A DNA stretch of 64,000 bases, taken from NCBI RefSeq assembly GCF_030056795.1, contig NZ_JASHKQ010000006.1:124001-188000 (forward strand), written 5' to 3'. Position numbers and translations under genes: made by a program. Under the pieces are notes generated by a model. It was not told where the DNA came from and searched no databases. It saw only the letters and a list, made by a program, of their open reading frames with translations. Each line of letters starts with the position of its first letter. Position 1 is the first letter of the stretch. This DNA is from Rhodococcus sp. IEGM 1381. Its GTDB lineage: Bacteria; Actinomycetota; Actinomycetes; Mycobacteriales; Mycobacteriaceae. Of this stretch, positions 971 through 16,201 are shown in pieces.

Positions 971-1342
971 GACAGATCAAGCCCTCACGTTCGAGGGACC
1001 CGCAACCGAAGAGATTCGTGAACGAGTCCGCGCTTGCCGCGCCGGTTTTCCGGCAACAGCCTGGTCGTCACCCGGAGCACCCCACCGCGGAGGAGGGTTG
1101 CCGACCAGCGAGCCGGGGCTTGATGCTGGTACTCGTGACCGTGGGGAAGACGATCGCAAACTCGCTGCGGTTTTGTCAAGCCGGGACTCACGCGTAGGCA
1201 GCAGTAGGATTCCCGCGGTGGGAAGGCGCGCTCGTTCACCTGCTGGCAAACAGAACGTGAGATAACCAACGGCGCTGCTGCTCGCCGGCACCACAGAGTT
1301 CCAGCACCACAGAGTCACCAACGAATCGATAAGGACGCCCGG
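971..1342. other. Divergent intergenic region
   Basis: This gap separates the divergent aminotransferase and NRPS genes and should hold both promoters. Open frames across it are arginine/proline-rich and look like shadows. I saw no RNA gene or clear riboswitch. An AAGGAC stretch at 1331-1336 is the probable ribosome binding site for the TTG start at 1343. Confidence 0.5.
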
Positions 1343-4300
1343 TTGTCTGTGCATCAAGAGAACGATCTGCCGGGTTCGAGCGCGGACATCGCGCCTGCAC
1401 CGGCGGTGTTTCTACGCTCGTCCCTCGCTCCTCCCGCCCGGACGCTCATCGACGTTCTCTGCGAGACCGCCCATCGCTTTCCCGACGCCCCTGCCATCGA
1501 CGACGGTGCCGTGTCGGTCAGCTACTCCGAATTGTTGGACGACATCGCCGAGGGCGCGAAGTGGCTCACCGATGCAGGCGTCCGGCGCGGCGATCGCGTC
1601 GGCATCCGGATGCCGTCGGGTTCGTTCTCGCTCTACGTCGCCATCCTGTCCATCTTGAACGTCGGTGCCGCCTACGTTCCGGTCGACGCGGACGACCCCG
1701 AAGAGCGCGCCGAGCTGGTTTTCGGCGAGGCGAAGGTCACGGCCATCATCACCGCAGGCGGTATCGCGGCCGGTACAGCTCCCAAGCAGGACACTCCTCG
1801 GCACGACCTTTCCGAACACAATGACGGACCGCCCACCCCGGAAGACGACGCGTGGGTCATCTTCACCTCGGGTTCCACCGGCACACCCAAGGGCGTTGCG
1901 GTCAGTCATCGCAATGCGGCGGCGTTCGTCGACGCCGAGGCGCGCATGTTTCTGCAGAAGGATCCACTGGGCCCGGGCGACCGAGTGCTCGCCGGCCTGT
2001 CGGTGGCGTTCGACGCCTCGTGCGAAGAGATGTGGCTGGCGTGGCGGCACGGTGCGTGTCTGGTGCCCGCGCCGCGGTCGCTGGTGCGGTCCGGCTTCGA
2101 TCTCGGTCCGTGGCTCGTCTCCCGGGACATCAGCGTGGTCTCCACGGTGCCCACGCTGGCGTCGCTGTGGCCCGCGGTCGCACTCGAGGCGGTGCGGCTG
2201 CTCATCTTCGGCGGCGAAGCGTGCCCGCCGGAACTCGCCGAGCGGCTTGCCGTCGAGGGCCGTGAGGTCTGGAACACCTACGGCCCCACCGAGGCAACGG
2301 TCGTCGCGTGCGCGGCCATCATGGACGGGAAGGGTCCCGTCCGCATCGGATTGCCGTTGGACGGGTGGGACCTGGCGGTGGTCGACGCGTCGGGCGCTCC
2401 GGTACAGGTCGGCGAAATCGGTGAACTCGTCATCGGTGGCGTCGGACTGGCGCGGTATCTCGATCCGGCCAAGGACGCCGAGAAGTACGCGCCCATGCCC
2501 TCCCTCGGGTGGGAGCGGGCGTATCGCAGCGGCGATCTGGTCAAGCTCGAGCTCGAAGGCCTGCTCTTTCAGGGCCGCGCCGACGATCAGGTCAAGCTCG
2601 GTGGTCGACGCATCGAACTCGGCGAGATAGACAATGCGCTGCAAGCACTTCCGGGTGTGGGCGGTGCGGCGGCCGCCATCCGCAAGACGGCCGCGGGAAA
2701 CTCGGTACTCGTCGGGTATCTCGCCAGCACCAACCCTGATTTCGATCTCGAAGCCGCTCGCGTGTTGTTGGCAGAGCAGCTGCCGGCGGCGCTGGTGCCT
2801 CGGCTCGCGCTGGTGGACGAGATGCCCACGCGAACCTCGGGCAAGGTCGATCGCAATGCGCTGCCGTGGCCCCTGCCCGGCGCGGCGGGAGCGTCTGCGC
2901 TCGGCGGCACAGCGGGGTGGGTGGCGCAGCTGTGGACCAACATCCTCGGTGCCCAGGTATCCGACGAGAACGCCGATTTCTTCGCCAACGGCGGCGGTTC
3001 GCTCTCGGCCGCGCAGCTGGTGACAGCTTTGCGCGAGCGGTTCCCCGAGGTCACCGTCGCCCAGTTGTACGACCATCCCCGATTGGGTTCGCTCGCACAG
3101 TATCTCGACGACCTGAAGCCGGTGGTCGAGGCAATTCCACGTGAGGTCGCCCCCACCTCGCGCACCGCCCAGTGGGCGCAGATTCTGGCGACGGTTCCGT
3201 TGACCACGTTGACCGGGTTGCAGTGGGTCACCTGGCTGGGGTTGCTGTTCAACGTCATGTCGTGGTTCGGTGACGTGTCGTGGGCTCCGACGCTGTCGTG
3301 GTGGTGGATTCTGCTCGCATTCGTCTTGTTCATCACGCCGGTCGGCCGGATGGCGATTTCGGTGATCGGATCTCGCATCCTGTTGGCCGGGTTGAAACCC
3401 GGCGCGTATCGACGCGGCGGCAGCATGCACATAAGGCTCTGGGCGGCAACGAGATTGACCGACGCCAGTGGTGCTTCGAATCTCTCGGGTGCGCCGTGGA
3501 TGGTCTACTACGCGCGTGCTCTCGGCTCGAAGATCGGCAAGGGCGTCGACCTGCACACGATGCCACCGGTCACCGGCATGCTCGAGCTGGGCGACGGCTG
3601 TTCCATCGAACCCGAGGTCGATCTCTCGGGTCACTGGATCGACGGCGATATCGTCTATATCGGCGGCATCGAGATCGGTGCCGGTGCCACCGTCGGTGCC
3701 CGCTCGACACTTCTGCCCGGAACCAAGGTCGGTAAGAACGCGGTCGTCACCGCAGGCTCTGCCGTCGTCGGACGAGTGAAGGCCGGGCAGATGTGGTCCG
3801 GGTCGCCGGCGCAGAAGGTCGGCAAGGCCGATCATCCGTGGCCCGCAGAGACACCGCCGCGCGCCACGAAATGGGTGTTCGCGTACGGCGTCGCGTCCCT
3901 GCTCCTGTCGGGCATGGCGCTGTTCTCCATCGGGGTCAGTCTGGTGCTGATGGGCTGGTGGATTCACACCGCCGAGTCCGTGCTCGACGCCTTCGAACGT
4001 GGACTGGTGATGTTGCCCGTCGCAACGATGGTGTCGCTGTCGGTGTTCGCACTGATCACCGTTGTCGCAGTGCGGTTGCTCAGCATCGGACTCGTCGGCG
4101 GATACCACCCCGTGCGCAGCCGTATCGGCTGGCAGGTCTGGGCCACCGAGCGACTCATGGACTCCGCACGCACGTTCCTGTTCCCGCTCTACGCATCGTT
4201 GCTGACGCCGCACTGGCTCCGGCTCCTCGGCGCGAAGATCGGCAAGGACGTCGAAGCGTCGACGGTGCTGATGATCCCGAAGTTCACCACCGTCGCCGAC

Positions 4301-5293
4301 GGCGCTTTCCTGGCCGACGACACGATGGTTGCCAGCTACGAACTCGGCGGCGGCTGGATGCATCTGGGCGACGCCAAAGTGGGCAAGCGGGCGTTCCTCG
4401 GCAACTCCGGCATGACCGGGCCCGGGCGAACCGTCCCGAAGAACGGCTTGGTCGCGGTGCTGTCGGCGACTCCGGACAAGGCGAAGTCGGGCTCGTCCTG
4501 GCTCGGCAGTCCGCCGGTGCGACTGCGTCGCGCCGCCGGTAGTGCGGATTCTTCGCGCACGTTCGATCCGCCCACGAAGCTCAAGATCGCGCGCGCACTC
4601 GTCGAGACATGCCGATTGATTCCTGTCGTCGTGACATTCGGCATCGGGCTCGGAGTGTTGTTCGGGCTCACCGCCATCGCCAACTCCATCGGGTACTGGA
4701 TGGCCGCGCTGCTCAGTGGACTCGTACTACTCGTCGCCGGTTTCGTGGCTGCGGCCGTCTCCGCGTTGGCGAAGTGGTTGTGGGTGGGCAGGATCGGCAA
4801 GACGGACCACCCGCTGTGGAGCTCGTTCGTGTGGCGCAACGAGGTGGCCGACACGTTCGTCGAGACCGTCGCGGCGCCATGGTTCGCGCGCGCAGCCGAG
4901 GGTACCGCCGTCCTGAACATGTGGCTGCGGTGGCTCGGGGCCGACATCGGGCGAGGTGTCTGGTGCGAGACGTACTGGCTGCCGGAGGCCGATCTGGTGA
5001 CGTTGGCCGACGGTGCGACGGTCAATCGAGGGTGCGTTGTGCAGACGCACCTGTTCCATGATCGGATCATGTCCATGGACACTGTCGATCTCGGCGCAGG
5101 CGCGACTCTGGGGCCGCACTGTGTAGCGCTCCCGGCCTCCGGTATCGGCGACGGCGCGACGGTGGGTCCTGCCTCCCTGGTGATGCGCGGCGATACGGTT
5201 CCCGCGCATACTCGTTGGCAAGGCAATCCGATCGCGCCGTGGGCCAAGGGTGATCCCTTTCCGCGGATTCGCGACGATCGAAACGAGGGGTGA
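1343..5293 (+). CDS. Pls/PosA-family NRPS-like synthetase (A-PCP-membrane/LbH domains)
   Basis: A 1316-residue synthetase starting at TTG, with AAGGAC 6 bases upstream. An adenylation domain covers about residues 20-505: IFTSGSTGTPKG is the A3 loop, YGPTEA is A5, YRSGDLV is A7 and TSGKVDR carries the A10 Lys. Core A4 reads FDASCEEMW, giving Glu at the position equivalent to GrsA 239. A carrier domain follows, with its pantetheine Ser at about 553 in NGGGSLS. There is no condensation or thioesterase domain. Residues 610-1316 are three blocks of membrane segments plus left-handed beta-helix repeats, the C-terminal layout of the Pls/PosA family (TIGR02353-like). Known Pls enzymes make poly-epsilon-lysine; the substrate here is not established. 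The gene overlaps an M1 peptidase gene by four bases. Confidence 0.9.
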   Translation: MSVHQENDLPGSSADIAPAPAVFLRSSLAPPARTLIDVLCETAHRFPDAPAIDDGAVSVSYSELLDDIAEGAKWLTDAGVRRGDRVGIRMPSGSFSLYVAILSILNVGAAYVPVDADDPEERAELVFGEAKVTAIITAGGIAAGTAPKQDTPRHDLSEHNDGPPTPEDDAWVIFTSGSTGTPKGVAVSHRNAAAFVDAEARMFLQKDPLGPGDRVLAGLSVAFDASCEEMWLAWRHGACLVPAPRSLVRSGFDLGPWLVSRDISVVSTVPTLASLWPAVALEAVRLLIFGGEACPPELAERLAVEGREVWNTYGPTEATVVACAAIMDGKGPVRIGLPLDGWDLAVVDASGAPVQVGEIGELVIGGVGLARYLDPAKDAEKYAPMPSLGWERAYRSGDLVKLELEGLLFQGRADDQVKLGGRRIELGEIDNALQALPGVGGAAAAIRKTAAGNSVLVGYLASTNPDFDLEAARVLLAEQLPAALVPRLALVDEMPTRTSGKVDRNALPWPLPGAAGASALGGTAGWVAQLWTNILGAQVSDENADFFANGGGSLSAAQLVTALRERFPEVTVAQLYDHPRLGSLAQYLDDLKPVVEAIPREVAPTSRTAQWAQILATVPLTTLTGLQWVTWLGLLFNVMSWFGDVSWAPTLSWWWILLAFVLFITPVGRMAISVIGSRILLAGLKPGAYRRGGSMHIRLWAATRLTDASGASNLSGAPWMVYYARALGSKIGKGVDLHTMPPVTGMLELGDGCSIEPEVDLSGHWIDGDIVYIGGIEIGAGATVGARSTLLPGTKVGKNAVVTAGSAVVGRVKAGQMWSGSPAQKVGKADHPWPAETPPRATKWVFAYGVASLLLSGMALFSIGVSLVLMGWWIHTAESVLDAFERGLVMLPVATMVSLSVFALITVVAVRLLSIGLVGGYHPVRSRIGWQVWATERLMDSARTFLFPLYASLLTPHWLRLLGAKIGKDVEASTVLMIPKFTTVADGAFLADDTMVASYELGGGWMHLGDAKVGKRAFLGNSGMTGPGRTVPKNGLVAVLSATPDKAKSGSSWLGSPPVRLRRAAGSADSSRTFDPPTKLKIARALVETCRLIPVVVTFGIGLGVLFGLTAIANSIGYWMAALLSGLVLLVAGFVAAAVSALAKWLWVGRIGKTDHPLWSSFVWRNEVADTFVETVAAPWFARAAEGTAVLNMWLRWLGADIGRGVWCETYWLPEADLVTLADGATVNRGCVVQTHLFHDRIMSMDTVDLGAGATLGPHCVALPASGIGDGATVGPASLVMRGDTVPAHTRWQGNPIAPWAKGDPFPRIRDDRNEG

Positions 5294-6633
5294 TCGTGGC
5301 AGGCAGATTGGTGGCACCGGTGTTCGACGTCGATTCCAGTGACAACCCGATCGACACGTATCTTCCGCAGAACGGCAACCGCGGCTATCGCGTCTCACGT
5401 TACGAGCTCGACCTCGAGTACAAGGTCGAGAGCAACCGGTTGACGGGCAAAGCGAAGATCACGGCGGTCACCACTGCGACGGTGTCGAAGTTCGCGTTCG
5501 ATCTCGGCCCGGCGATGAACGTGTCGAAGGTATCGGTCAACGGTTCGCGTTCGGTGAAGTTCAGCCATCAACGCGGCAAGCTGAAGATCACGCCCGCCAA
5601 GCCGATCGCCTCGGGTGCAGCATTGGTGGTGACGGTGACGTACGGCGGAACTCCCAAGCCCATCAACGGTTTGTGGGGTGAAGTCGGCTGGGAAGAGCTC
5701 ACCGAGGGATCGATCGTCGCGAGTCAGCCGAACGGTGCCGCATCGTGGTTTCCGTGTGACGATCATCCGGTATCCAAGGCCAGCTACGGCATCACCATCA
5801 CCACCGATTCGCCGTACTACGCGGTGGCCAACGGAACGTTGGTGCGCAAGCAAACTCGCGCCAGCCGCACCACCTGGGTGTACGAGCAGCCCGAGCCGAT
5901 GGCCACGTATCTCGCGACCATTCAGATCGGTCCATACGAGCATCGCATCGTCAGCCCGGGTCCGGTGCCGATGAAGGCGATCACTCCCCCGCGACTGCGC
6001 GCACAGTTCGACCACGATTTCGGCCGTCAACCGCAGATGATGGATACCTTCGTACGGCTCTACGGCCCTTACCCTTTCGCGTCGTACACCGTGGTGGTGA
6101 CCGACGACGATCTCGAGATTCCGATCGAGGCGCAGGGGCTGTCCATCTTCGGGGCCAATCACTGTTCGGGTTCCCGGTACTACGAGCGTCTGGTGGCGCA
6201 CGAATTGGCGCACCAGTGGTTCGGTAATTCCCTGACCCTCGGCAAGTGGGCCGACATCTGGCTGCACGAGGGATTTGCGTGTTACTCGGAGTGGATCTGG
6301 GCCGAGAACTCCGGCGGCGCAACGGCTCACGACAAGGCAAAGCGCGCGCACACCATTCAGCGTGGGCTCGAGATGGATCTGCAGCTCACCGATCCGGGGC
6401 CGGAGCGCATCTTCGACGATCGCGTCTACAAGCGCGGCGCCCTGGCACTGCACGCACTACGACGCACGATCGGCGACGAGCGTTTCTTCGGACTGATCCA
6501 GGAATGGACCTCCAAGTACCGCTACTCCACCGTGGCGACCGCGGACTTCACCGACCTCGCATCCCGCTTCGGTTGCCCCCGAAGTCTGTGGGACGCATGG
6601 CTTGTGGACACGCAACTTCCGTCGTTGCCGTAG
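5290..6633 (+). CDS. M1-family zinc metallopeptidase (aminopeptidase)
   Basis: A 447-residue gluzincin. The zinc site is HELAH with His304, Glu305 and His308, followed by Glu327 in LHEGFACYSEW, the M1 spacing. The N-terminal beta domain (about 30-200) is typical, but the exopeptidase motif GAMEN is replaced by PIEAQG, and the C-terminal helical domain of long M1 enzymes is missing. No signal peptide or membrane anchor is seen. The GTG start lies inside the stop of the NRPS gene (GTGA overlap), so the two are translationally coupled. Epsilon-poly-lysine producers carry a peptide-degrading aminopeptidase linked to Pls, so this protein may trim or degrade the NRPS product. That role is inference from context. 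Confidence 0.9.
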   Translation: MIVAGRLVAPVFDVDSSDNPIDTYLPQNGNRGYRVSRYELDLEYKVESNRLTGKAKITAVTTATVSKFAFDLGPAMNVSKVSVNGSRSVKFSHQRGKLKITPAKPIASGAALVVTVTYGGTPKPINGLWGEVGWEELTEGSIVASQPNGAASWFPCDDHPVSKASYGITITTDSPYYAVANGTLVRKQTRASRTTWVYEQPEPMATYLATIQIGPYEHRIVSPGPVPMKAITPPRLRAQFDHDFGRQPQMMDTFVRLYGPYPFASYTVVVTDDDLEIPIEAQGLSIFGANHCSGSRYYERLVAHELAHQWFGNSLTLGKWADIWLHEGFACYSEWIWAENSGGATAHDKAKRAHTIQRGLEMDLQLTDPGPERIFDDRVYKRGALALHALRRTIGDERFFGLIQEWTSKYRYSTVATADFTDLASRFGCPRSLWDAWLVDTQLPSLP

Positions 6634-11125: not shown

Positions 11126-12100
11126 TCATTCACTCCGGCCGAGGATGTATTCGGCCGTCAGGGCTACCGATCGGTCCGCGTCTTGGGTCAAGCCCTGCAG
11201 TGCCTGCACTGCTGCCGGTCCCGGAATGCTCGCCAGGGCTTGCGTCACTCGCAGTCTCACAGCGACATCGTCGAGCCCGTCCATCAGCGCCGCAACCGTA
11301 GAAGAGTCGGATCCCAGCAGTCCGAGTGCGTCTGCTGCGTCCACATCGTTCGCTCCGTCGTGGACCATCTCGATCAGCGTCGGAACGGCGTCGGTCATCC
11401 CTCGGGCCGCCAGTTCCAGTGCAGCGACGCGCCTGATCTGCGCGTCGTCGTGGACCAGCGCCTCGCGTAACACGTCGGTGGCGTCGGGGTGGGCAATCTC
11501 GACGACGGTATCGACGGCGCGGCGGCGCACATCGGGGTCCGGTGAGTGCAGGCCGCGGCGCAGCGGCGCGATCGCGTGGCCACCCGACTGCGCGAGGGCC
11601 CACCGAAGTGCGCCGGCCACGTTGGTTGCGGGTTCGCGCAGTACCGCCTCGGCCAGGGCCTCCGCCGGTATGGGGCGATCACCGACCGATGCCAACGCTG
11701 CCGACTGCCGTTTTCCCGCACTCACCGAGTCCAGGTCGCCGAGCATCGCCACCGTGCCGAGCACGTCGTCCCAGTCGTCGGGACGGGCGCTGCCGACGCG
11801 ACGCAGCCGCGTCAGCAACTCGGTATCCCGCGCGACGCGCTCCTCCGCTCGGGCCGCGAGCTCGTCGACGAGTCCCGACGCCGCGAAACTCGGGTCGTCG
11901 AGCGCTCGGCCGACGTCGTGCAACGACAGACCCAGCGAGCGTAGGGATTCGACGTGGAACAGACGCCGAACGTCCTCCGGGGAGTACTCGCGGTAGCCGG
12001 TGCTGCTCCGCGAGTTCGGCTGCACCAGCCCGAGCCGGTCGTAGTGCCGGAGCATGCGCGCACTGACCCCGGACCGCCGCGCCACCTCACCGATCAACAT
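11126..12100 (-). CDS. MerR-family regulator fused to HEAT repeats
   Basis: A 324-residue fusion. Residues 1-70 are a MerR DNA-binding domain (MLIGEVARRSGVSARMLRHY, then GLVQPNSRSSTGYREYSPEDV). A helical dimerisation stretch to about residue 115 follows. From about 140 to the end come HEAT-like repeats, with helices such as VAGALRWALAQSGGHAIAPL, VRRRAVDTVVEIAHPDATDV and IRRVAALELAARGMTDAVPTL. No cysteine metal site of the usual MerR kind is present, so the repeats probably sense a protein or other partner. It lies nine bases after another HEAT protein gene and before the cupredoxin gene. Confidence 0.85.
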   Translation of the reverse strand: MLIGEVARRSGVSARMLRHYDRLGLVQPNSRSSTGYREYSPEDVRRLFHVESLRSLGLSLHDVGRALDDPSFAASGLVDELAARAEERVARDTELLTRLRRVGSARPDDWDDVLGTVAMLGDLDSVSAGKRQSAALASVGDRPIPAEALAEAVLREPATNVAGALRWALAQSGGHAIAPLRRGLHSPDPDVRRRAVDTVVEIAHPDATDVLREALVHDDAQIRRVAALELAARGMTDAVPTLIEMVHDGANDVDAADALGLLGSDSSTVAALMDGLDDVAVRLRVTQALASIPGPAAVQALQGLTQDADRSVALTAEYILGRSE

Positions 12101-12109
12101 CGTCCTATC

Positions 12110-12736
12110 TCACCCCGCCGTGTCGCCGACGCCAAGGGCATCGACGCGTCTGGCCTCGAATATCGAGAACCCGGCATCCGGATCCAGCAACAGCGCCTCG
12201 GTCGCCCCCGCGTGTACTCGAACAGCAACATCCTTGCTCGACGCGGCCTGCCGCAACATCGGCTCGATCACCGAACCCAGTGCGACCAGAGCGCGACTCA
12301 GACTGCGTTGCATCTCTCGCCCACCTCGCCCGAGTTGCGTGCCCAGCATCCTGGCCAGCTGCCCTTCGCTTCCTGTCGGTACCAGAACCACCGCGGCTCG
12401 CCACGCGCTGCGCGCCACCTCGTCGTCGGGGTCGGCGATCAACGGCTCGGTGATGACCGGCCACGCCGCCCGATCTTTGATCTTGGACAACGTGTGCAAC
12501 GCCTGGCTGCGAGCCTGTGCCCCGCCGAATCGCACCTGCTCGATCAATCGCGGAACCGTCGACGACGCAGGAAGCCGAATCAGCGCCCACGTCAACATCT
12601 CCCGCACCTGAAAATCAGGTTCGACGGCGCACCGCTCCAGCAGTGCGTCGAGGAACTGCAGATCCGGCGTCGTACCGATATCGAGCGCCGCCCGCAGCCG
12701 GGCCGACGAATTGCTGTGTTCGAGTCCTTCGTTCAT
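12110..12736 (-). CDS. HEAT-repeat protein
   Basis: A 208-residue, cytoplasmic, all-helical protein starting MNEGLEHSNSSARL at 12736. An earlier GTG at 12781 is in frame but would overlap the upstream gene. The helical pairs FQVREMLTWALIRLPASSTVP, ARSQALHTLSKIKDRAAWPV and VARSAWRAAVVLVPTGSEGQL are HEAT-like. Its repeats resemble those of the MerR-HEAT protein that follows after nine bases, so the pair may have arisen by duplication of a repeat module and may interact. No enzymatic motif is seen. Confidence 0.78.
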   Translation of the reverse strand: MNEGLEHSNSSARLRAALDIGTTPDLQFLDALLERCAVEPDFQVREMLTWALIRLPASSTVPRLIEQVRFGGAQARSQALHTLSKIKDRAAWPVITEPLIADPDDEVARSAWRAAVVLVPTGSEGQLARMLGTQLGRGGREMQRSLSRALVALGSVIEPMLRQAASSKDVAVRVHAGATEALLLDPDAGFSIFEARRVDALGVGDTAG

Positions 12737-12770
12737 GCGGCCCAGCCAAGACCCTGTCACCGTGCCAAGG

Positions 12771-14828
12771 TCAACCCCCACCCAGGACGTCCGCGAGAGT
12801 TCGGTTCATCGTGTTCAGTGCGCGCACCGCGCCCCGTAGCGGGCCTGGTGCATTGGTCGAGGTGAGCAGCACATCCAAAACCGTTGTCTCGGTGATCTTC
12901 TCCGGCGGATCGACGTGCTTGCCCGCCGCGGCCGCCTCGACGTGACGTACGGTCTCGCGCACCAGAGCCGCAGCGTCGCGCAGAGCCCGGGCCGTGTCGT
13001 CCGACGGGGCCGTCTGCGTATCGGCGCGAGCGGCCAGCACACCTGCTCTGGCCAATGCATGGGCAGATCGGCTACTGACGGCCAACACTCGAAGCAGTCG
13101 TTTCGCCCCTCGCCTGCTGCGGGTCGTCGGCCCCAGTACGAGTGGCTTTCCGGCCGTCACGACGTCCTTCAACGCGTTGTCGAGCACGCGCGTCGACGCC
13201 ACCAGGTCGGTCTCCCCTCCCGGCGCCACGACCGATTCGACACTGGCCTCGATCAACGCGTCCAGCTGTTCGAGGTAGGTATCGACCTTGTCCACCATCG
13301 TCTTTCGAGTTCCGGTCGAGAAGATGAAGTACGCGGAGACGATGCCGACCACGCCGCCGACGGCGGTCTCGGTGATACGAAGCTCGAGCACCTCGATACT
13401 GAACGTGCCCAGCAGCCCGTAGAGCATCGCAAGCAGAATAGTGACGAAGAACGACAGCAACGCGTACGCCACGGTCACCAGGTAGAACGCGAAGAAGACG
13501 CAGACGACGATCAACACCAACTGCAGGGGTTGATTGTTGCCCACCAGTGCCGCGATCACCACTCCGGCCAGCACGCCTGCGATGGTTCCGAGTACGCGTT
13601 GACCTGCGCGCGTGAGGATTTCGCCCCGAGTCGACGCGCCGGTGAACACCAGGAACGCCGTGAGCACCGCCCAGTACCAGCGGTCGGGCGAGACCAGTTC
13701 ACCCAGCACGGTCGCCGCGCTGGTGGCCACGGCCACCTGAATTGCGGCCTTGGTGCTGGGGTTCAGTCCGCTCGGCTCGTCCTTGGTCGCGGGCTCGGTC
13801 GATTCGGTCTCGGGGCTCGCCGCAACCGAGACTGCGTTGGTGGTGATGTGATGAATAGCGATGTGCGCCTGCACGGCTCGCTGCGCAGAGACCGTAGCGA
13901 TGCCTGCGGGGGTCGACGGGTCGGCACGCTCGGCGGCCGTTGCGGCCAACCGACGCGCAGCTCGAAGCTGTTCCGAGGACGGCGTGTTCTGCAGGACCGA
14001 CCCGAGTGCCGTCGTTGCTTGGCCCAGCGCATTGGGCCATGGCTTGACCGGATCGAGAGCCCAGAGAGAGCTGACGAGTTGTTCGGTCGCGATCTGGGCG
14101 TCGAACACGCGGAGCGACAGATCGGTGCTGGTGACACTGAGCAGCTGGCCGGCATCGTGTCGGTCGAGCCAGTCGTCGATCATCAGCGCGGTGTTGCCGA
14201 GTCGGTCGAGTCTGCGGCGCAACAGGTTCAGATCACGACCCTCCCCTGCCGACGCCGCCTCCAGCACCGACACCGATACCGCCCGCATGGCGAACAGCAA
14301 CCGACGAACTTCCACGATCGGCCGGTCCGGGAAGATCACCGCTCGCACGAACAACGCGATCGCCAAACCGCCGAGGATCGCCGCGATGAGCATCGGCAGC
14401 TGCCCCGGGGTCGCGCGCAGAAACAGTGCGAAGAAGTACGAGATGAACGCCACCATCCCCAGCGCAGTGCCGCGAGGACCGAATCTGCGGACCCACACGG
14501 CCGCGAACAACACCGCGATAAAGCCGACGTCGGCCACCTTGCCGAGCTCGGAGAGCAACGACGCCAACGTCACTGCCGCCGAGGCCGGCAGCGCCATCAG
14601 TGCGGTGGTGATCAGCCGACTGTGCTGATCTTTGTCCTTCACTGCCGCCGATGCTTGCATCGCCACCACGGTTCCGAGCATCGCGACCGTCACCGGCTGA
14701 CCGATGGCGCGCGTGGTCAGCAACAGAATCACCATCGCCAGCAGCACCGTCAACGTCGTCGCCGACGCGCTCCGAAGCCGAACCTGCCCCGGATCCGAGG
14801 CGTCGAGGATTCGGGCGAGGCGGTTCAT
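12771..14828 (-). CDS. FUSC-family integral membrane protein (putative efflux/transport)
   Basis: A 685-residue protein beginning MNRLARILDASDPGQ. Two blocks of about five or six hydrophobic helices (residues about 20-180 and 365-500) alternate with long cytoplasmic helical domains. This is the duplicated layout of the FUSC/YccS/aromatic-acid-exporter superfamily. Marks include TVAMLGTVVAMQASAAVKD in the first block and FTGASTRGEILTRAGQRVLG, ending GTIAGVLAGVV, in the second. The open frame extends upstream to 15434 but overlaps the GAF gene in antisense-like composition, so 14828 is the start. It is 14 bases downstream of the GAF regulator gene. Substrate unknown; a weak-acid exporter is a fair guess. 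Confidence 0.85.
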   Translation of the reverse strand: MNRLARILDASDPGQVRLRSASATTLTVLLAMVILLLTTRAIGQPVTVAMLGTVVAMQASAAVKDKDQHSRLITTALMALPASAAVTLASLLSELGKVADVGFIAVLFAAVWVRRFGPRGTALGMVAFISYFFALFLRATPGQLPMLIAAILGGLAIALFVRAVIFPDRPIVEVRRLLFAMRAVSVSVLEAASAGEGRDLNLLRRRLDRLGNTALMIDDWLDRHDAGQLLSVTSTDLSLRVFDAQIATEQLVSSLWALDPVKPWPNALGQATTALGSVLQNTPSSEQLRAARRLAATAAERADPSTPAGIATVSAQRAVQAHIAIHHITTNAVSVAASPETESTEPATKDEPSGLNPSTKAAIQVAVATSAATVLGELVSPDRWYWAVLTAFLVFTGASTRGEILTRAGQRVLGTIAGVLAGVVIAALVGNNQPLQLVLIVVCVFFAFYLVTVAYALLSFFVTILLAMLYGLLGTFSIEVLELRITETAVGGVVGIVSAYFIFSTGTRKTMVDKVDTYLEQLDALIEASVESVVAPGGETDLVASTRVLDNALKDVVTAGKPLVLGPTTRSRRGAKRLLRVLAVSSRSAHALARAGVLAARADTQTAPSDDTARALRDAAALVRETVRHVEAAAAGKHVDPPEKITETTVLDVLLTSTNAPGPLRGAVRALNTMNRTLADVLGGG

Positions 14829-14842
14829 TCCTCGATTCTGCG

Positions 14843-16201
14843 CTACTGCCTCACGTCGTGCTCGAAGAGCCGGGCCGCGCAGATCGCCGGTGCCGACGAA
14901 TGCGGCAGCAAACGGCTCAGGTCCGACGGCATGAGCAGCTCGACCGTCGACGACTCGTCCAGTCGGTACGGCTGGGTGGAGACGATGCCGGCGAGGTGTT
15001 TGCGCAGCCGCGACATCTCGGCACGAACGGTGATGGCTCGGCCGGCGTCGCCGAACAGATCTGCGGCCATCTGGGCGGCCGTTCGCCCGTGCCGATTCGT
15101 GGCGAGAAGGTACAGAATTTCGGCGTGCCGGGGCGTCGGCTCGTGAGTCCACTCCCCCACTTCGCTGCGTACCTCGAGGCGCGGCTTCTGTGAATTGCGC
15201 AGGTCGATGCGAATTCTCGTCGTATTGCCGGAGTCCGCGACGGACGAATCCGCGGCACCGCCAGGAGTGGAGCCTGCGGAACGACCATAAGAAGTCGGGC
15301 GGACCAGCCATCCACCGGGCAGGGGTTCGAAGTCGCACACGCCGAGGGTCGGCAGCCAGAAGCGTCCCGTTGCCAGGTCCTCGGGCAGCAGAATTCGATT
15401 GCGCAGTGCCACCGATTCGACGGCCGCGACCCATCCGTTCGCGTCGACGGCCAGCGCCGGCGACCGCAGTCGCGCGAGCATCGGTGCGGCCACCGAGCGC
15501 AGTCGATCGAGGGTGCTCCGGTGCAGTTCGCGCAGTTGGGATTCCGCCAACCGTGCTACTGCGTCGACCAGCGCGATCGTGGTGGGGTGCACCGTCTTCG
15601 CCGGTCCGCTGACGTCGATGGCTCCCAGCACCTGACCGGTTCGCGGATCACGAATGGGCGCTCCGGCGCAGGTCCACGAATGATGGCTCCGCACAAAGTG
15701 TTCGGCCGAGAAGATCTGGACCGCGCGGCGGGAGACCAGTGCCGTTCCGATGGCGTTGGTGCCCACCGAATCCTCGGCCCAGTTGGCCCCCTCGACGAAT
15801 CCGAGGTTGTCGGCGCGGTCGAGGACGGCCGTCGATCCGCTGCGCCACAGCACGCGGCCGTGCCGATCGGCGACGACCAGAATGTTGTCGCCGTCCTGTA
15901 CCACCGACTCCAGTCCGCGGGCCAGATCGTCGAGGATGTCGAACAAACCCGACTCCCGACGCGTGAGCTCGAGGTCGGAGACGTCCATCTGCGTCTCGGC
16001 GGGGTTGCCCAGCTCGGGGTCGATGCCGAGGGTCTGCAACCGTCGCCACGAGTCACCGATGACCTCACGGGGACGCGCGGGTGACTTGCCGCCGGTCATG
16101 GTCGCGTCGTACACGGCAGTGAGAATCTGCGCGTAGCGGCGCGGGTCTTCGCCGGCCGCCAGCGCAGGTTCGGGGCCTGTCGACTGCGTCATCGCTGTCA
16201 A
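14843..16201 (-). CDS. GAF-domain transcriptional regulator with C-terminal winged helix (AcoR-like sensor)
   Basis: A 452-residue regulator. Residues about 75-225 form a GAF sensor like that of AcoR: GLFDILDDLARGLESVVQDG, WAEDSVGTNAIGTAL and SAEHFVRSHHSWTCAGAPIRD. There is no AAA+ sigma-54 domain. The C-terminus (about 375-452: TPRHAEILYLLATNRHGRTA, then a DNA-recognition helix and RLRKHLAGIV) resembles a winged helix of response-regulator type. A segment GRSAGSTP near residue 310 is encoded by a dispersed repeat (15262-15286). It lies 35 bases downstream of the acetoin/butanediol genes and probably activates them. The start could be nine bases further in (MTQSTGPE). Confidence 0.85.
   Translation of the reverse strand: MTAMTQSTGPEPALAAGEDPRRYAQILTAVYDATMTGGKSPARPREVIGDSWRRLQTLGIDPELGNPAETQMDVSDLELTRRESGLFDILDDLARGLESVVQDGDNILVVADRHGRVLWRSGSTAVLDRADNLGFVEGANWAEDSVGTNAIGTALVSRRAVQIFSAEHFVRSHHSWTCAGAPIRDPRTGQVLGAIDVSGPAKTVHPTTIALVDAVARLAESQLRELHRSTLDRLRSVAAPMLARLRSPALAVDANGWVAAVESVALRNRILLPEDLATGRFWLPTLGVCDFEPLPGGWLVRPTSYGRSAGSTPGGAADSSVADSGNTTRIRIDLRNSQKPRLEVRSEVGEWTHEPTPRHAEILYLLATNRHGRTAAQMAADLFGDAGRAITVRAEMSRLRKHLAGIVSTQPYRLDESSTVELLMPSDLSRLLPHSSAPAICAARLFEHDVRQ
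15262..15286 (+). repeat. Dispersed repeat copy inside the GAF regulator gene
   Basis: This 25-base copy begins CAGGAGTGGAGCC and ends GCGGAACGACC, with T at the one position that differs from the two tandem copies at 59058-59123. It is in frame in the host gene (minus strand GRSAGSTP) and lies in a low-complexity linker. Confidence 0.75.

Follow-up and report, generated by a model that had tools for sequence, protein, structure and literature searches.

What would a Rhodococcus cell build with a condensation-free nonribosomal peptide synthetase whose gene is directly followed by that of an M1 zinc peptidase, and what would the peptidase do to the product? This pair lies on the forward strand of a 64,000-nucleotide stretch of Rhodococcus sp. 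IEGM 1381 (contig NZ_JASHKQ010000006.1, positions 124,001 to 188,000; hereafter the window), for which the initial annotation had proposed a system that builds and trims a cationic homopolymer. The proposal gains support from a lysine-type specificity code in the adenylation (A) domain and from the recurrence of the peptidase context, and the locus very probably consists of a gene for an ε-poly-L-lysine synthetase of Pls type and, behind it, the M1 peptidase gene that usually accompanies such synthetases. Such a build-and-trim reading fits because pls and pldII are reported to act in this way in Streptomyces albulus (PMC9223678). The system as such is already known, in that published accounts describe Pls homologs in Rhodococcus (PMC8117764, PMC10819586) and the pls-pldII pairing of Streptomyces and Corynebacterium; a mostly cytosolic peptidase and the core-gene behaviour of the pair are possibly new. 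Both open reading frames of the initial annotation, 1343-5293 (+, TTG) and 5290-6633 (+, GTG), are present, with the following features:

1331..1336 (+): AAGGAC, read from sequence as the probable ribosome-binding site for the synthetase, with a similar site before TTG in relatives such as L015
1343..5293 (+): Pls-type ε-poly-L-lysine synthetase gene (very probable assignment), TTG start, 1316 residues, by TIGR02353 and best PDB match 7wew_A
1463..2884 (+): adenylation domain, about residues 41-514 (Pfam AMP-binding, residues 41-371; 7wew alignment, residues 17-514)
2918..3106 (+): carrier (thiolation) domain, residues 526-588, by Pfam PP-binding
3176..5233 (+): C-terminal polymerising region, residues 612-1297, by TIGR02353, an AlphaFold model and beta-helix fold matches, mainly to the first beta-helix
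within 3176..5233 (+): membrane helices in three pairs, and three beta-helices of left-handed type
5048..5050 (+): His1236, candidate catalytic residue by alignment conservation, within the Q-x-H-x-x-x-D motif of the third beta-helix
5285..5290 (+): GAGGGG, likely ribosome-binding site for GTG 5296, read from sequence, close relatives having this hexamer ahead of their later start
5290..6633 (+): M1 zinc peptidase gene (Pfam Peptidase_M1), 447 residues from GTG 5290; start at GTG 5290 or, more likely, GTG 5296
6199..6213 (+): HELAH zinc motif (H304-H308), HELAHQWFG in 106/109 aligned rows, the window's own included
6268..6270 (+): Glu327, third zinc ligand, 18 residues past HELAH, by sequence and alignment

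Synthetase architecture and substrate pocket

A Pfam search of the 1316 residues of the synthetase yields a single AMP-binding and a single PP-binding domain together with hexapeptide repeats; neither a condensation nor a thioesterase domain was detected by the same search. Residues 612-1297 match positions 2-695 of the 695-position model TIGR02353 (NCBIfam 'Pls/PosA family non-ribosomal peptide synthetase') with 736.5 bits against a cut-off of 423.1. Among the PDB chains searched with phmmer, the closest is 7wew_A, an ε-poly-L-lysine synthase A domain, which scores 632.6 bits with the whole synthetase as query and 634.9 bits with residues 1-592. The architectural features of the Pls group are found, namely an A domain and a carrier domain unaccompanied by condensation or thioesterase domains, and an NRPS_term_dom at the C-terminus that comprises three tandem domains and six membrane helices (TIGR02353, AlphaFold). 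The domain plan drawn in the initial annotation, with its membrane/beta-helix C-terminus, is borne out by Pfam, TIGR02353 and the AlphaFold model. The phosphopantetheine arm is probably attached at Ser553 of NGGGS553, a serine chosen by the carrier motif. TTG is likewise the first start at about the same position in 5/10 relatives (L013, L014, L015, L020 and L034).

The ten-residue code of the A domain is DAESIGTVVK (D224, A225, E228, S267, I288, G290, T312, V320, V321 and K501), its residues having been located by the core motifs of GrsA. It equals that of 7wewA at all ten positions, with 311 of 483 aligned A-domain positions identical between the two proteins (64%), and it recurs in 109/109 aligned relatives; for the 80 loci collected from genome contigs (the best 80 of at least 594), which were found with patterns including the pocket region, the identical code is partly a product of selection. 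The lysine-type Asp, Ala and Glu are present at code positions 1 to 3, and position 2 holds Ala225 rather than the Met of PosA type. The Glu that the initial annotation had singled out in the A4 core is E228, a pocket residue. According to the report on PosA, the δ-poly-L-ornithine synthetase of Acinetobacter baumannii, whose code is DMEHNGTVSK, both amino groups of the substrate are bound by the pocket Asp and Glu, which are conserved and were required in PosA, and position 2 has been proposed to set side-chain length, with Phe for diaminopropionate and diaminobutyrate (Dap/Dab), Met for ornithine and Ala for lysine (PMC10522769). The code points to lysine as the expected monomer because it matches 7wewA and because position 2 is Ala. 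Comparison with Pls and PosA at the sequence level therefore gives a lysine-type, not a hydrophobic, code; of the three monomers originally left open (lysine, ornithine and diaminobutyrate), lysine is the one favoured by the identity with the 7wew code.

A homopolymer synthetase for ornithine, diaminobutyrate, diaminopropionate or β-lysine would nevertheless share much of this anatomy, since the C-terminal family builds several polymers and the pocket Asp and Glu are common to their enzymes (PMC10522769); PosA has the same A-thiolation-membrane/beta-helix architecture and the same two acidic residues. PosA differs from the window's synthetase in its code, in its ornithine substrate and in being described as a single-gene operon with no obvious neighbours (PMC10522769). 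All ten positions here equal those of the lysine enzyme 7wew, including Ala at position 2, the code reported for a β-lysine enzyme is DGESISVVNK (PMC10522769), and the DFE-type codes form a separate set of 8/129 loci in a class-wide sample, all of which makes another monomer very improbable.

The peptidase gene and its conserved pairing

The downstream protein matches Peptidase_M1 with 90.1 bits (cut-off 27.7) and Peptidase_M1_N with 52.8 bits in Pfam, and its HExxH motif, the Glu 18 residues further on and the M1 N-terminal domain place it in family M1, with an intact zinc motif. As with PldII, the peptidase gene lies directly downstream of the synthetase gene, adjacency being the property examined. 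The four-base overlap with the synthetase stop described in the initial annotation corresponds to a start that does exist, GTG 5290, and such a start is on offer in 62/109 loci with both genes. It is doubtful as the start in use, and the overlap has been dropped as an established feature because relatives' starts match GTG 5296 instead: the M1 frame of the closest relatives (e.g. L097, L106 and L108) begins six bases past the synthetase stop, and the matching start in the window is GTG 5296, two bases past the stop and five bases past the GAGGGG site. Across the 109 loci, out of 110 retrieved, that have the two genes (L113 being the window's own copy), the start nearest the stop lies at -4 in 51, -1 in 33, +6 in 10 and +2 in 2, the remainder having it elsewhere or lacking one. 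With either start, the two genes would be close enough for coupled translation.

The pair was sought across Rhodococcus, as the initial annotation had suggested, and the peptidase context recurs in genus and class alike; as far as sequence can show, the proposal thus withstands the refuting conditions named in the initial annotation, a hydrophobic code or a peptidase context that is not conserved. TIGR02353 is found above its cut-off in 37/37 genus genomes, counting that of the window, in 114/393 genomes of the class and in 1/14 control genomes, the one being Corynebacterium glutamicum; a count over kinship-ordered rows gives the synthetase in 34/39 sampled family members, with five misses among the family members listed. 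One genus genome contains a second copy above the cut-off (G035:C3:333919-336021, 675 bits). An M1 match stands downstream of the synthetase in 30/30 genus loci, window included, these loci coming from 30 of the 37 genus genomes, and in 79/80 of the genome-contig loci, the 80th (L068) ending with its contig. A class sample of 129 loci, window included, was drawn by the C-terminal family and is free of pocket-selection bias; with about 1.4 to 2.2 kb of downstream DNA covered for most loci, it has M1 near 99/103 Lys-coded loci, near 4/8 DFE-type loci and near 1/18 loci without a readable code, hence near 5/26 loci that are not Lys-coded. The 18 unreadable loci (no A domain in frame, a cut region or a wrong reading-frame pick) stand outside the 103 and the 8. 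Matches to the window's peptidase in the whole genome occur at 3 places, itself included, the other two being weak. The pairing is not due to chance, because so few genomic places match the peptidase, yet the pair recurs at nearly all Lys-coded loci. In addition, the nonsynonymous rate (dN) is well below the synonymous rate (dS) for both genes in all 5 chosen comparisons (against L009, Pls dN 0.090 and dS 0.95, M1 dN 0.117 and dS 1.09), and both genes are under purifying selection.

Two variants of the arrangement were seen in passing. In L021, L023 and L024 (Tsukamurella) and L026 and L027 (Williamsia), the M1 gene is separated from the synthetase by 0.3 to 2 kb of other DNA, and in L237, L238, L240 and L242, DFEY-coded (Dab/Dap-like) synthetases are followed at about 0.8 kb by an M1 gene with a Sec-like leader.

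The leader of the peptidase bears on where it would act. In the window it comprises 21 or 23 residues, depending on the start, with a longest unbroken apolar run of 6, Arg before it and acidic residues after it, and no convincing export signal was seen by reading its hydropathy and apolar-run length. Plain hydropathy proved insufficient as an export test, the window's leader reaching 2.08 from GTG 5290 and 1.42 from GTG 5296 (threshold 1.6), so that it passes from the earlier start with no signal-like run; the near relatives L107 (1.90) and L116 (1.74) also exceed the threshold. Among 213 partners judged by the same two measures (7 with no assignable start), 12/206 others with a resolved start pass 1.6, comprising five twin-arginine-like leaders (four S. 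albulus-like and L243), four Sec-like leaders beside DFE-coded synthetases and three that are not signal-like (L026, L107 and L116). An apolar run of at least 9 is likewise found in 12/206, made up of the same nine signal-like leaders and of L026, L169 and L208, which are not signal-like. The unbroken run separates the leaders better than hydropathy, with 6 in the window against 12 to 20 in the nine signal-like leaders. The partner peptidase is probably cytosolic here and in most partners examined, because no convincing export signal was seen. Among the papers listed by literature searches, none dealt with a missing export signal by title or abstract, which leaves room for an earlier account in print.

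Known systems and the likely role of the pair

The closest characterised counterpart is pls-pldII of S. albulus, in which PldII is reported to be translationally coupled to pls and located outside the membrane, and in which repression of pldII is said to give longer polymer and lower tolerance (PMC9223678); surface activity of PldII has also been reported (PMC9205021). The comparison was made through 7wew and the sequences of four close relatives, i.e., four genomes (of five found) whose A domain is 89-93% identical to 7wew and whose partner of 467 residues overlaps the synthetase stop by four bases; with its stop, that partner takes 1404 bases, the reported length of pldII (PMC9223678). The window's locus shares with this system the synthetase architecture, the A-domain code and the M1-type peptidase directly downstream. 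It differs in that its A domain is 64% identical, its peptidase is about 40% identical to the S. albulus-like partners, and those partners carry a twin-arginine-like leader that includes a hydrophobic stretch (apolar run of 12 in 4/4), which the window's peptidase does not convincingly have.

Further likeness is provided by Corynebacterium variabile, whose gene of Pls type made ε-poly-lysine of 26-35 residues in S. coelicolor, and whose synthetase gene adjoins a peptidase gene; the same report lists Rhodococcus among the genera with Pls homologs (PMC8117764). By its published description, it resembles the window in gene order, domain plan, peptidase partner and a Pls-like code, and it differs in that its function was established by heterologous expression, the function of the window's pair being read from sequence and analogy. 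Within the genus, antiSMASH is reported to predict an 'NAPAA ε-poly-L-lysine' cluster in five Rhodococcus erythropolis strains with 100% similarity (PMC10819586), a gene of the same kind, with the difference that the report offers it as a cluster prediction.

On these precedents, the A domain would activate L-lysine as lysyl-AMP and load it onto the carrier arm, as in characterised enzymes (PMC9205021), and the M1 peptidase, made at the same time, would cut the polymer and thereby limit chain length and protect the cell. By analogy, the product would be lysine chains with ε linkages, and the polymer would be the substrate of a peptidase that presumably resides inside the cell. Several observations weigh against this account. 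C. variabile itself is reported to have given no detectable ε-poly-lysine in culture, and its gene gave none in C. glutamicum with the protein present (PMC8117764). Four of the 103 Lys-coded loci have no M1 within about 2 kb; in two of these genomes an unlinked M1 is found (48% identity in one, 29% over nearly the whole length in the other), and the other two show only weak partial M1 matches. M1 also stands about 0.8 kb downstream of 4/8 DFE-coded loci, which weakens it as a marker of lysine enzymes only; the M1 there is probably another peptidase, because its leader is Sec-like. Finally, with no S. albulus-like leader and about 40% identity, the window's peptidase cannot simply be assigned the outside location of PldII.

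If the synthetase made ε-lysine chains and the M1 gene encoded a general aminopeptidase merely kept nearby, the spread of partner identities to the window's peptidase (39-84% in 12 cases shown) and the presence of an export leader in some partners and its absence from most would be readily accommodated. The skew of M1 towards Lys-coded loci (99/103 against 5/26), the scarcity of peptidase matches in the genome and the altered chain length after pldII repression in S. albulus (PMC9223678) all argue against such a bystander, which appears improbable. A different question is whether the polymer is an antibiotic at all, for it might be a low-level housekeeping molecule of the cell or envelope that a cytosolic peptidase recycles or shortens. 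The presence of the synthetase throughout the genus and in most of the family, purifying selection, the rarity of export signals among the partners examined and the lack of product reported for C. variabile cultures (PMC8117764) speak for a housekeeping role, but a conserved antibiotic cluster would look alike, and we regard this role as a real possibility held with less than even confidence. It is compatible with, not exclusive of, a Pls-type synthetase accompanied by its usual M1 partner.

Under the favoured assignment to a Pls-type synthetase and partner peptidase, it may be suggested tentatively, as a rather doubtful extension, that the pair serves Rhodococcus and its family as a slowly evolving core module whose peptidase is cytosolic; ε-lysine chains would be produced and shortened, and perhaps retained within the cell or envelope, in the course of normal physiology. 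If true, export of the peptidase as a means of self-protection would be peculiar to the S. albulus group. ε-Poly-lysine is used commercially to preserve food, and the window contributes a well-formed Rhodococcus pair to a kind already known; as the pair looks core in the family, the polymer may have a normal cellular role beyond what the cited papers define, and a partner peptidase mostly without an export signal runs contrary to the S. albulus picture.

Polymerising region and surrounding genes

Residues 598-1306 were modelled by AlphaFold from 52 sequences (predicted local distance difference test, pLDDT, 88.1; predicted template modelling score, pTM, 0.89). The model contains six long helices, arranged pairwise, along with strand runs compatible with three beta-helices; five of the six, all but the first, were also picked up by plain hydropathy. 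For PosA, the same picture, a predicted pseudo-threefold beta-helix region, has been published (PMC10522769). Most of the structural neighbours are hexapeptide acyltransferases, and some are carbonic anhydrases or designed proteins. The TM-scores given by Foldseek are low (0.10-0.16 by query length among the 50 rows listed), designed proteins and a carbonic anhydrase appearing beside acyltransferases. The best VIA row, 4mzu_J, has Z 12.7 and a root-mean-square deviation of 2.9 over 105 residues, mainly in the first beta-helix, and the VIA rows, some of them carbonic-anhydrase-like complex I subunits, lie for the most part over model residues 73-240, again the first beta-helix. The fold searches thus bear mainly on that domain, the second and third being hardly covered.

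The His1236 motif is kept in 103/103 Lys-coded and 23/25 other members, whatever their code, in the class-sample alignment (one locus of 129 yielded no open reading frame); the two loci lacking it are wrong frame picks, whose right frames have it. His1236 is the sole histidine common to all members across the class sample and is a candidate catalytic residue by analogy, because hexapeptide acyltransferases use a histidine. The third beta-helix, with His1236, would then form a single peptide-bond-making site, a suggestion advanced jointly with that of a core module with a cytosolic peptidase and as doubtful as the latter. His738 in the first C-terminal domain was set aside as a catalytic residue, being present in 110/110 Lys-coded rows yet outside the residues conserved across all members. 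Kito 2013 reportedly dealt with tandem-domain mutations, and a test of His1236 may be among them; no paper on a 'catalytic histidine' was found among the titles listed by a literature search. One further alignment comprised the window and 51 of the 80 genome-contig loci.

Around the pair, a conserved wider cluster is not supported in the 80 genome-contig loci with flanks of at most 6 kb on either side (shorter for some), where matches to the window's neighbours number 23 for a class-V aminotransferase, 8 for an MFS gene, 7 for a GntR gene, and 1 and 0 for two small genes. The class-V aminotransferase gene (2-970, -) is divergent from the synthetase gene, and just upstream of it lies a SAM-IV riboswitch (1025-1140, -; 111.5 bits, gathering cut-off 38). 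Elsewhere in the window, a MerR regulator joined to HEAT repeats (11129-12100, -) stands beside a gene for a HEAT-repeat protein (12113-12781; region 11129-12781, -) and one for a FUSC-family membrane protein (12774-15434). Contigs C8, C11 and C29 of the source genome (G000) carry many long nonribosomal peptide synthetase genes, with open frames of up to 8944 residues among the adenylation-domain matches.

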